Shown: piece by piece, positions 15,906 through 40,287 of the stretch
Position numbering within the stretch: position 1 is the first letter of the stretch
How the letters are laid out: each line of letters opens with the position of its first letter
NCBI GenBank assembly: GCA_944389945.1
Contig: CALXOF010000006.1
Location: 1 to 64,000 of the forward strand
Source of the DNA: an uncultured Kiritimatiellota bacterium
Lineage (GTDB): Bacteria; Verrucomicrobiota; Kiritimatiellia; RFP12; DVOR01
DNA: 64,000 nucleotides
Direction: 5' to 3'
Notes under the pieces: model-generated
Told to the model about the DNA's origin: nothing
Seen by the model: only the letters and a program-made list of their open reading frames with translations
Databases searched by the model: none
Translations under genes and position numbers: made by a program

Positions 15906-15930
15906 CATCCCACAAAATAAGTCTTTATGG

Positions 15931-15959
15931 TTGACGGGGGGGGGGAAAGTTGCTATTGT
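15931..15959 (+). promoter_or_regulatory. promoter with poly-G spacer (PEP-CTERM gene)
   Basis: TTGACG (15931-15936) and TATTGT (15954-15959) have a 17-base spacer. A run of ten Gs starts with the last base of the -35 box and fills the first nine spacer positions. Gain or loss of a G would change the -35/-10 distance. The gene starts 49 bases after the -10 box. The same design occurs at 24710 and, on the other strand, at 27591. Confidence 0.65.
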
Positions 15960-16007
15960 ATAGGCAGTCAAGGGTGCCAGGAGGCGCCCCGGGAAAGGAA
16001 TTCAGAA

Positions 16008-16670
16008 ATGAAGAAACTTGTGATTGCGGCCTTGATGGCCTGTGCTTTTGGCATCGGGACGGCCTCTGCCGTGACGATGAACTGGACGGACTCTAATGGC
16101 AATCTGACCACGACGGAACGGAATTATGGGGACTCCTTCACCGTCAGCCCCACCACCTCCTTCTCGATGTTGGTGACGCTCAACGTCAGTGGATACGCGG
16201 CGAACCAAAAGTGGGATGTCCTCACGGCCTACAACACTGCTAACAAGAGCGACGATGGCTTCCGCCTTCGCATAGAAAATAGGTGGATGTTGCTGAAGTA
16301 CAAGGACGAGGGCACAGAGAAGGATATCAAAAGCGGTACCAACGGCAACCTTTCCGACTCGTTGGACTCCACCAATGGGACGCTTCGCTTAGCCATCGCC
16401 GTGACCGCGGAAGGCATTCGCGTCGCTGTCATGGGCCAGGACGCTCTTTTCACAACTGATGCTATCGGGCTTGATGAGCTGACGAACTGGAGCATCGGCA
16501 CGCACGTTGATGGCGTCGACCTCACGCAGGTGGACGTCTATGAAGGCGTGGCTTGGACGGACGACCAACTTCATGCTGCGGCCGACGGTCAACCCATCCC
16601 CGAGCCGACCGCCCTGGCACTCTTGGCCTTGGGCGTGGCCGGTGTGGCCCTCCGCCGCCGCGTGGCTTGA
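16008..16670 (+). CDS. PEP-CTERM sorting domain protein
   Basis: 220 residues: an N-terminal signal peptide (MKKLVIAALMACAFGIGTAS-A), a beta-rich middle part that could fold as a concanavalin-like (LamG-type) domain, and a C-terminal PEP-CTERM signal of Pro-Glu-Pro, a hydrophobic stretch and an Arg cluster. In the family, exosortase (EpsH/XrtA) cleaves this signal and the protein reaches the surface or matrix. No exosortase is in this window. The last 24 residues are the same as those of the protein at 39592-40287, though the codons differ. GGAAAGGAA precedes ATG. Expression probably depends on the poly-G promoter at 15931. Confidence 0.87.
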   Translation: MKKLVIAALMACAFGIGTASAVTMNWTDSNGNLTTTERNYGDSFTVSPTTSFSMLVTLNVSGYAANQKWDVLTAYNTANKSDDGFRLRIENRWMLLKYKDEGTEKDIKSGTNGNLSDSLDSTNGTLRLAIAVTAEGIRVAVMGQDALFTTDAIGLDELTNWSIGTHVDGVDLTQVDVYEGVAWTDDQLHAAADGQPIPEPTALALLALGVAGVALRRRVA

Positions 16671-24709: not shown

Positions 24710-24740
24710 TTGACGTAATGGGGGGGGGGAGTGGTATTAT
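24710..24740 (+). promoter_or_regulatory. promoter with poly-G spacer (CD225 operon)
   Basis: TTGACG (24710-24715) and TATTAT (24735-24740) are 19 bases apart, and the spacer holds a ten-G run (24720-24729). Loss of two Gs would give the optimal 17. It stands 60 bases before the first zinc-ribbon/CD225 gene. Confidence 0.65.
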
Positions 24741-24800: not shown

Positions 24801-25430
24801 ATGTTTTGCTCGAATTGCGGATTTAAGCTGGCGGAGACGTCGAAATTTTGTCCCCAGTGCGGGACAAAAGTTGAACCCATCTCCATCGCCCCGGCAGTGC
24901 CGGAGGCGCCTGCTTCGGTATCGTCCCAGGCCCCCGCTGATCCAATGATGGAAGCACCGGTGATGGAGGAACCTGCTCCTACTCCTACTCCGGCACCGGC
25001 GGTAACGAGGCCGGCCATCCCATCGACGGTGCCACTGCGCAAAGGCTCTTATGCGTCGCAGACGATTGGGCAGGGCCCCAGGAAAACGGTGCGCCGTGTG
25101 GTACGAACCTCTGCCCAGCCGTCGACATCGCAGATGCGGGTCCCCACTCGACCGTTGACGCCGCAGGAGCAACTAGCGCAGTATCGTCGGCTTCGCCCCT
25201 CGCCGCTGGTGTGGTCCATCTTGGCGACAATCTTGTGTTGCATGCCGCTGGGCGTGGTCTCAATCGTGATGGCGTGCAAGGAGAATTCGTGCCTGGCGGT
25301 GTATGACTTCACGGGTGCCGCAGAGGCGAACCAGTCGGCGCGGACCTGGGCATTCTGGGCCCTGATAACAAGCATCATCGGTAACGGCATCTCGTTCTTT
25401 ATCTTGTTTGCGCTCCCCGATACCTTCTGA
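24801..25430 (+). CDS. zinc-ribbon and CD225/dispanin-like membrane protein
   Basis: 209 residues. An N-terminal zinc ribbon MFCSNCGFKL...FCPQCG at about 1-22, a long Pro/Ala/Glu linker to about 135, then two membrane helices: LVWSILATILCCMPLGVVSIVMA followed by a loop and the last helix near 185-205. The CCxPLG-x-x-S segment is typical of CD225 (dispanin, interferon-induced transmembrane-like) domains. Bacterial members have no known role. AGGGAAG is close before ATG 24801. It is the first of four genes in line, all membrane proteins; the poly-G promoter at 24710 likely drives them. Confidence 0.75.
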   Translation: MFCSNCGFKLAETSKFCPQCGTKVEPISIAPAVPEAPASVSSQAPADPMMEAPVMEEPAPTPTPAPAVTRPAIPSTVPLRKGSYASQTIGQGPRKTVRRVVRTSAQPSTSQMRVPTRPLTPQEQLAQYRRLRPSPLVWSILATILCCMPLGVVSIVMACKENSCLAVYDFTGAAEANQSARTWAFWALITSIIGNGISFFILFALPDTF

Positions 25431-26673: not shown

Positions 26674-27510
26674 TTAGTGCTTCTGTAGCAAAAGCTGTTT
26701 CTGAATGTCTTGGGCGGCACGCCGTACTCGCCGTATAGTTTCCTGCTCTTCGGTTGTGTTAGAGCGACTCTGCAAGAGCTCCCATCTCAAAGAAAGAGAC
26801 AAATCCTTAACCTGGCAGGAGACTGCGACAACGACCTCGTTGGAGTACAGCTTATGGGCTTTTCTGTAGGCGAGCAGCCTCGTCCAAGACCACGGATTCA
26901 GGTCTTCGACTTCAAACGTGCCACTCTCCACTTCCCCACTCGGGACCTTGATGGAGTATTTGGCGGTATAGAAGTCTTCCTTCCCCTCCTGCTCAATGAG
27001 CTCAAAGTCAACAATCTCGTAGCGATCCATGTTGACACCCTCTATATCGAGGGTGGTGATAAACTCTTTCCGGGCCGCTTCGATAAGCCGGTCATGGTGC
27101 GTGATGCCGTAGTAACATTGAATGCCTGCGTTAATAAGGATAGCGATAAAGATGATACACGCCACAATGACGCCAATCTTATTCACCTTACGCTTCCAAG
27201 CCTCCATCTTCTTGGCTACGGCCTCTTTCTTTGCCGTTTCCGGGTCGGGGGTGCCTCCCATCTCCTCCGCCTTCGGCGCCTCCGGCTCAGGGGCACCTTG
27301 AGGGTGAGCCGTTGCGTCACTTGCAGACCCCTTCGGCGCTTCCTGCTCGGGGGCACCTTGAGGGTGAGCCGTTGCGTCACTTGCAGACCCCTTCGGCGCC
27401 TCCGGTTCGGGAGCTTGTTGGGGTTGGGGCGTGCCGTTGACCGCCGCGCCACACCGCGTGCAGAACTGATTGCCATCGATGAGTCGATTACCGCATTTTG
27501 TGCAGAACAT
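26674..27510 (-). CDS. zinc-ribbon single-pass membrane protein with repeat linker
   Basis: 278 residues. A zinc ribbon MFCTKCGNRLIDGNQFCTRCG at 1-21 is followed by a Pro/Glu/Ala linker with a 22-residue repeat (GAPEQEAPKGSASDATAHPQ-type, two full copies plus a partial) at about 32-80. A basic helix and one membrane segment (IGVIVACIIFIAILINAGIQ, about 112-131) come next, then a soluble region of 145 residues I do not recognise. The ribbon suggests kinship with the CD225 genes opposite. AAGGAAGG is close before ATG. The gene is convergent with the DUF2752 gene; its promoter has a G-run (27563-27591). Confidence 0.75.
   Translation of the reverse strand: MFCTKCGNRLIDGNQFCTRCGAAVNGTPQPQQAPEPEAPKGSASDATAHPQGAPEQEAPKGSASDATAHPQGAPEPEAPKAEEMGGTPDPETAKKEAVAKKMEAWKRKVNKIGVIVACIIFIAILINAGIQCYYGITHHDRLIEAARKEFITTLDIEGVNMDRYEIVDFELIEQEGKEDFYTAKYSIKVPSGEVESGTFEVEDLNPWSWTRLLAYRKAHKLYSNEVVVAVSCQVKDLSLSLRWELLQSRSNTTEEQETIRRVRRAAQDIQKQLLLQKH
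27283..27420. repeat. 66-bp in-frame tandem repeat
   Basis: Two nearly perfect 66-bp units and a partial third lie in the linker of the zinc-ribbon gene (minus strand). They differ at few bases, so copy number could change by slippage while the frame is kept. Confidence 0.85.
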
Positions 27511-27562: not shown

Positions 27563-27591
27563 AGGATAATACCGCCCCCCCCCATTGTCAA
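27563..27591 (-). promoter_or_regulatory. promoter with poly-G spacer (zinc-ribbon gene)
   Basis: On the minus strand TTGACA (27591-27586) is followed by AT, nine Gs (27583-27575) and CGG, then TATTATCCT. TATCCT (27568-27563) gives a 17-base spacer; TATTAT (27571-27566) would give 14. ATG is about 50 bases further on. Confidence 0.65.
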
Positions 27592-39591: not shown

Positions 39592-40287
39592 TTAGGCCAC
39601 GCGGCGGCGGAGCGCCACGCCCGCCACGCCCAGCGCCAACAGCGCCAACGCCGTCGGCTCAGGAATAGAGTAAGTCTGGCGGAGGTCATCGATGGTGGCC
39701 TGCGCATAAGCCACCTCGAAATCCTCCCCGAACGCAATGCCGCTGGCTTCCTCGTCCATGCTGACCTTGTTGCCAAGGACATACTTATAGACCCACCAGT
39801 TGCCGCCGGCCACTGCTGCATTCGTGATGGTGTAGATTTCCACGCCATCAACGAAGAGGGAGGCATTCATCCTGCCATCGGTCGTGCGCTCGATGGCCAA
39901 GGCCAGCTCGTGCTTCTGCCCGTCCAAGAGTTGAGCGATGCTAGCATCCTTGCTCGTGTGCGAGTCCGTGTTGCCGATACCCAAATGAAGGATACCATCT
40001 CTCATCCACACGGTCGGAGAAGAGTCCTTGTGTCCATTTTCATCGTCGCCAAAGCTCAGCAACGAGCCGGAATAGGAATCACTGGACGAGGTGAAGGTGG
40101 CGATGACGCGCAGGACGCCGGCTTGAGACCCACCCGTCTGGAACCCAGGCGCGATGTGGGCCCCGTTCGGCAAAGTGCCGAGGGTGCCGGCGGTGTAGTT
40201 GTCGATGGCGTTCCACGCGATGTTCGCCGCTTGGGCAGCGCTAAGAGCCAGCGCGGCAAAGGCCGCGGTAAGCAGTGTTTTCTTCAT
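39592..40287 (-). CDS. PEP-CTERM sorting domain protein (LamG-like)
   Basis: 231 residues from ATG 40287. A signal peptide (MKKTLLTAAFAALALSAAQA) is followed by a beta-rich domain of LamG/concanavalin type (DGILHLGIGNTDSH, HELALAIERTTDGRMNASLFVDG) and a C-terminal Pro-Glu-Pro, hydrophobic stretch and Arg cluster identical to that of the protein at 16008-16670. The two proteins otherwise share the layout rather than close sequence. GAAAGGAG precedes ATG 40287. ATG 40425 in the same frame, directly behind the leader RNA and AAAAGG, would add 46 Gly/Ala/Pro/Arg-rich residues ahead of the signal peptide. Confidence 0.85.
   Translation of the reverse strand: MKKTLLTAAFAALALSAAQAANIAWNAIDNYTAGTLGTLPNGAHIAPGFQTGGSQAGVLRVIATFTSSSDSYSGSLLSFGDDENGHKDSSPTVWMRDGILHLGIGNTDSHTSKDASIAQLLDGQKHELALAIERTTDGRMNASLFVDGVEIYTITNAAVAGGNWWVYKYVLGNKVSMDEEASGIAFGEDFEVAYAQATIDDLRQTYSIPEPTALALLALGVAGVALRRRVA

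Follow-up and report, generated by a model that had tools for sequence, protein, structure and literature searches.

Homopolymer tracts in PEP-CTERM gene promoters as candidate phase-variation elements in a genus of uncultured gut bacteria

The focal locus and the tract promoters of the window

The 64-kb window, by which we mean the whole stretch of DNA analysed, contains a PEP-CTERM gene preceded by a sigma-70-like promoter with a run of ten G between its −35 and −10 elements, as in promoters of the porA type (Table 1). Nine of the ten G belong to the spacer; the first closes the −35 hexamer. The first-pass annotation had reported TTGACG and TATTGT 17 bases apart, a ten-G run and a PEP-CTERM gene downstream; the coordinates proved exact, and the protein scored above the curated cut-offs of both PF07589 (E 3.4e-06, 27.4 bits; cut-off 20.7) and NCBIfam TIGR02595 (20.5; cut-off 16). 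Its signal peptide, judged by eye, covers approximately residues 1–21, and the PEP-CTERM motif lies at residues 196–218.

Table 1. Positions of the promoter elements and genes considered in the window
Feature	Position	Strand	Remark
Upstream element AAATAAGTCTT	15915–15925	+	By eye; recurs before C-tract promoters; putative function
−35 hexamer TTGACG	15931–15936	+	Read from the sequence
G10 tract	15936–15945	+	Proposed slippage site setting the −35/−10 distance
Extended −10, TGC (15951–15953) and TATTGT (15954–15959)	15951–15959	+	Spacer exactly 17
AAGGA ribosome-binding site	15995–15999	+	
Focal PEP-CTERM protein, 220 aa	16008–16670	+	ATG at 16008
Second G-tract promoter, TTGACGTAAT-G10-AGTGG-TATTAT	24710–24740	+	Spacer 19
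Zinc-ribbon and CD225 membrane protein behind the second G-tract promoter	24801–25430	+	PF04505 E 1.2e-14; PF13240 E 6.6e-08
Third G-tract promoter, TTGACAAT-G9-CGG-TATTAT	27566–27591	−	Spacer 14
Zinc-ribbon protein behind the third G-tract promoter	26674–27510	−	PF13240 E 1.5e-07
Second PEP-CTERM gene, without tract promoter (comparison)	39592–40287	−	L152

G octamers as such are not above chance in the window, with eight matches against a shuffle mean of 10. It is their placement that stands out: the window has only three runs of eight or more G (at 15936, 24720 and 27575), all of which lie between TTGAC and TAT..T, as does none of the seven runs of exactly seven G. The pattern with fixed spacing was matched twice, against a shuffle mean of 0.02, and none of 100 shuffles reached two matches. 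Two further promoters of the same design had been claimed for this window; the layout held for both, but the spacing did not, being 19 and 14 rather than 17, with the third promoter returning to 17 if the alternative −10 TATCCT (27563–27568) is used. According to Pfam, both head zinc-ribbon genes, not PEP-CTERM genes, and the one with a CD225 domain had too few orthologues for a promoter comparison. The other zinc-ribbon gene contains a 60-bp tandem repeat of 2.4 copies (27270–27411).

Recurrence of the design and its link to exported proteins

Pattern searches were controlled by reading the same pattern backwards. In the source genome (G000; 2.325 Mb, 34 contigs), TTGAC-N0-12-G6-N0-14-TATNNT gave 16 matches at 14 sites, against one in the reversed control. 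A G7 version with shorter gaps gave 81 matches across 17 genomes of the genus, of which 13 were positive, compared to one control match (summed rows). A G8 version was searched over 288 genomes of the class, and its totals, again summed from rows, were 66 matches in 11 of 15 genomes for the genus (control 0), 48 in 26 of 89 for the rest of the order (control 0) and 28 in 19 of 184 for the rest of the class (control 7). The G-tract design is concentrated in the genus, present in the order and fades towards background beyond. Outside the genus, 21 G-tract sites in six genomes mostly precede long, exported-looking proteins. Related proteins found among named genomes carry conflicting organism names, an uncultured Kiritimatiellaeota bacterium and Candidatus Spyradenecus faecavium, since NCBI taxonomy places Spyradenecus in Lentisphaerota; G013 and G001 look identical to these two assemblies and were counted once.

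Other PEP-CTERM genes are preceded by a run of C, in the form AAATAAGnCTTG-C8-10-...TTATGCTAnnnT, giving the layout TTG-C8-10-TATGCTAnnnT. The pattern TTGC7-N4-16-TATNNT yielded 47 matches, some of them nested, in the 17 genus genomes (12 positive), against one in the control (summed). Among 30 loci listed, 20 distinct C-class sites were found; 19 of these had a called ORF, and every one of the 19 was a PEP-CTERM gene. If TTGCCC is taken as the −35 hexamer, nine C correspond, by our own count, to a spacer of 17.

PEP-CTERM proteins form a secretion class with few known functions. A strict DNA pattern for PEPTA-LA identified 17 such C-termini in the source genome (control 0), and in 10 of the 17 genes a run of at least eight identical bases lies within 130 nt of the start, the base being G in five and C in five. 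The remaining seven comprise one with an interrupted C-run and six with none, among them the other PEP-CTERM gene of the window (39592–40287). One stretch of the source genome (C1:35880-38606) holds three PEP-CTERM genes in tandem, with a separate tract promoter for each (C8, C9 or G9). The genome also encodes an exosortase (PF09721, E 2e-38, at G000:C8:4329-5087), as do 14 of the 17 genus genomes when it is included, and the combination of a C-terminal PEP-TM-basic motif with an exosortase in the genome is that of known PEP-CTERM/exosortase sorting. The pattern searches gave 64 G-class sites followed by an ORF, which is a PEP-CTERM gene in 24 of them, a count that misses ORFs cut by the end of a locus; in a larger G-class set 63 of 76 ORFs begin like signal peptides under a crude rule.

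These counts bear on whether the tracts could be a mutational by-product, that is, functionless G or C runs in GC-rich intergenic DNA. The octamer count of the window, being no higher than in shuffles, fits such an origin. However, the reversed-pattern controls were almost empty, the tracts persist across species as their flanks diverge, and 7 of the 33 runs of nine or more in the source genome fall within the 17 × 130 nt upstream of PEP-CTERM genes, where 0.03 would be expected. We regard a chance origin as scarcely credible. Separately, five source-genome loci (L013, L015, L019, L040 and L041) carry G9–G12 runs inside long open frames and are possible translational contingency loci.

Tract length, spacing and the case for phase variation

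Orthologous promoters were recognized among 110 sites by their flanks and signal peptides, and 12 pairs were compared, each with the 100 nt that precede the tract and the 60 nt that follow it. The tract differed in length in nine of the 12 pairs, with eight flank indels in all. In the six pairs with three or fewer upstream substitutions, tract length differed in five and the 160 flanking bases held no indels, although these six comparisons are not independent, three of them coming from one trio (G8/G9/G7). Among individual pairs, a C9/C8 pair had one substitution upstream, a C8/C10 pair was identical over the downstream 60 nt and a G10/G12 pair had near-identical flanks. Run length thus varies between conserved flanks, as in porA-type promoters, the comparison being between species only. 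Two unambiguous orthologous pairs with unchanged tracts (G11/G11 and C9/C9) count against slippage. L087 and L129, which differ at 46 of the 109 columns upstream, are doubtful orthologues. The 12-pair comparison supersedes an earlier per-base Fisher test on hand-entered counts (7 of 10 pairs, 5 gaps in ~640 bp).

Orthologues of the focal promoter have G9 with a spacer of 14 (G013), G5 with a spacer of 11 (G010), an interrupted tract, GGGAGTGGG, with a spacer of 18 (G016) and G11 (G009); with the source genome included, four species have spacers of 17, 14, 11 and 18. The G010 orthologue has ATA in the position of the ATG, although a GTG is present in frame, two codons upstream.

Metagenome assemblies are least reliable at homopolymers, and wrong homopolymer lengths in draft genomes could in principle create unreal differences of this kind; two of the relatives are metagenome assemblies and the others look like similar drafts. 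Against this, the tracts are consistent in place and class, their differences reach 2–5 bases, and those at the focal locus accompany interruptions and flank changes, which are not homopolymer errors. An assembly artefact is, on this evidence, very unlikely.

Spacing was analysed for 78 G-class sites of the genus, one G257 site being left out as belonging to another family. The −10 was called with our own weight scheme, as TATNNT alone misplaced short-spacer sites that have a better −10, TGnTAnnnT, five bases on. The spacer was 16–18 in 49 sites and ranged from 11 to 28 in the others, the two longest (27 and 28) probably being mis-called, and a TG extension was called in 70 % of sites. Tract length and the length of the non-G spacer showed a weak anti-correlation (rho −0.30, p 0.007), which suggests that some selection may favour a total spacer near 17, although the same would be expected of a fixed promoter. 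The spread of spacers was rejected as proof of slippage, as 35 ordinary TTGACA promoters, unfiltered for false hits, scatter alike (SD 2.8 vs 2.7).

The main rival to slippage holds that the tract is a constant component of a single class of promoter, with a structural or regulatory role, such as a stiff spacer, a G-quadruplex or a regulator site, and with no switching. Such a class would account for the strong recurrent consensus of G009 (TTGACnnnnnG9-10TGGTATnnT, spacers mostly 16–17) for the weak compensation toward 17 and for loci that hold a spacer of 17 in several species; one of these (L050, L102 and L061) does so in three species via different sequences, which counts against slippage, as do the presence of MutS and the seven of 17 PEP-CTERM genes that have no tract of eight or more. 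It would likewise suit the order relative G257, whose ten promoters (L141 and L193–L201; TTGAC-N-G9(10)-TAT(A/G).T), mostly before exported-looking proteins, have a near-uniform tract, G9 in nine of the ten sites read, and are not reconciled with free slippage. A sequence-specific site, however, would not be expected to take both a G and a C form in the service of one gene family. Orthologous tracts differ by 1–2 with unchanged flanks, and a single orthologous locus, the focal one, ranges in spacer from 11 to 18. We consider a fixed promoter class unlikely.

The first-pass proposal of phase variation gains support from the genus-wide recurrence of the design, from its concentration at PEP-CTERM genes and from the tract being the site of length change between close relatives. 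With a probability of roughly 80 %, and as judged from sequence comparison, the focal G10 is a simple-sequence contingency element in a sigma-70-type promoter, acting by porA-type, spacing-dependent phase variation. Slipped-strand mispairing would add or remove a G within populations, and each gain or loss would take the −35/−10 spacing towards or away from the optimal 17 and, by precedent, change promoter strength and PEP-CTERM transcription. Expression of the genes behind tract promoters could probably rise or fall at random, and the extended TGn form of the −10 suggests graded control more than a strict on/off switch. The focal promoter would be one of a genus-wide set, of porA-like G-tract and opc-like C-tract promoters, that drives exosortase-sorted proteins, presumably surface-exposed, and other exported proteins.

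The familiar examples of promoters with mononucleotide runs come from a few human pathogens. In the excerpts of the source papers available to us, poly-G length alters the −35/−10 distance and promoter strength at porA (PMC3899988, PMC7864442) and at tp0126 (PMC7864442), the optimum spacing is 17 for both porA and tp0126, and the poly-C of opc encompasses the −35 box (both PMC7864442). The first-pass annotation had likened the focal promoter to porA and opc together; the likeness to porA stands for the G class, and opc, on those excerpts, does not describe the focal promoter and instead fits the C class. Neisseria meningitidis porA, as excerpted, shares with the G class a poly-G in the sigma-70 spacer of a surface-protein promoter and an optimum near 17, but it is one gene for a classical porin in an unrelated pathogen, whereas the present promoters are genus-wide, serve PEP-CTERM proteins and have an extended −10. 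Neisseria opc, on the same partial text, resembles the C class here, whose run starts right after TTG and so covers the −35 region; the C class differs in its recurrent AAATAAG upstream element and, at 19 of 20 sites, in its dedication to PEP-CTERM genes. Several poly-G promoters in one genome also occur in Treponema pallidum (tp0126 and tpr), where tp0126 has its tract between −35 and −10 with an optimum of 17 (PMC7864442, excerpt); these are outer-membrane proteins of a spirochaete, and the excerpt makes no mention of PEP-CTERM sorting.

Exchange of mature domains behind conserved promoters

At two loci common to G000 and G008 (L005/L075 and L056/L085), the sequence from the upstream flank across the promoter to where the signal peptide ends is 96 % (1,659 columns) and 97 % (1,655 columns) identical. 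Over the next ~450–570 bp identity is lost, and it recovers in the part that encodes the PEP-CTERM end. By BLASTP, the mature parts of L005 and L075 had no significant match to each other and those of L056 and L085 were 26 % identical. Judged from these alignments, the whole mature domain is replaced at both loci, with promoter, signal peptide and PEP-CTERM anchor kept. The first of the two was traced through four species by the sequence downstream of it, and three different mature domains occur there: one common to G000 and G010 (61 %), a second in G008 and a third in G013. Exchange is not universal, as four other orthologous pairs retain their mature domain at 66–99 % identity. Sharp exchange boundaries were seen at L005/L075 and L056/L085, whereas L014/L098 kept its domain (74 %). 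More broadly, the mature domain appeared replaced or strongly diverged, with the ends kept, in comparisons of the source-genome loci L005, L056, L014 and L016 with L075, L085, L098/L099 and L178. Relatives of the G008 domain were found in G011, G016 and G012 behind G-rich, G8 and G10 promoters.

The predicted model of the focal protein (mean pLDDT 67.9) is a jelly-roll beta-sandwich of the galectin/LamG type, with a best Z of 12.9 (rmsd 2.8, 134 residues aligned) and 8–16 % identity to the structure chains listed. The exchanged G008 domain, unrelated-looking in sequence, models as the same type of fold (pLDDT 71.6; best Z 12.0, rmsd 2.9, 144 residues). That these PEP-CTERM proteins are glycan-binding surface proteins is a fair guess, model confidence being moderate and a fold showing no function. 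Individual cells might then differ in the combination of lectin-like proteins on their surface.

Combined phase and antigenic variation in these uncultured gut bacteria of the Kiritimatiellae type, to which we would give even odds, would involve at least a dozen G- or C-tract promoters in a genome that slip independently of one another; many would drive a protein in which a lectin-like domain can be exchanged between constant ends, so that the displayed proteins and their binding could both change quickly. By title and abstract, we found no literature linking PEP-CTERM to homopolymer promoters, and searches combining Kiritimatiellae or PEP-CTERM with phase variation, and PEP-CTERM or exosortase with Kiritimatiell, returned no comparable system. 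Closest among gut relatives is Akkermansia muciniphila, for which the partial texts available propose mononucleotide slippage in genes (PMC3048395) and demonstrate a capsule switch by DNA inversion (PMC13343947). It is similar in its proposed slippage and its switching surface structure, and differs, as far as those texts describe, in that its tracts lie within genes and its capsule promoter switches by inversion.

Slippage in promoter runs is a known mechanism; what is new here is the lineage, the scale and the coupling to domain exchange. The same device, in two tract classes, occurs genus-wide in a little-known commensal lineage of the animal gut, without genetics in the papers found, and tract promoters occur together with replacement of the exposed domain on PEP-CTERM proteins. 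If switching takes place, random single-cell diversity of surface lectins is predicted, which could be read from metagenomic reads, and the tract promoters would offer a sequence signature for finding further systems of this kind. At one G010 locus (L119), an L056-type G7 promoter remains and the PEP-CTERM gene is cleanly missing, its flanks lying adjacent.
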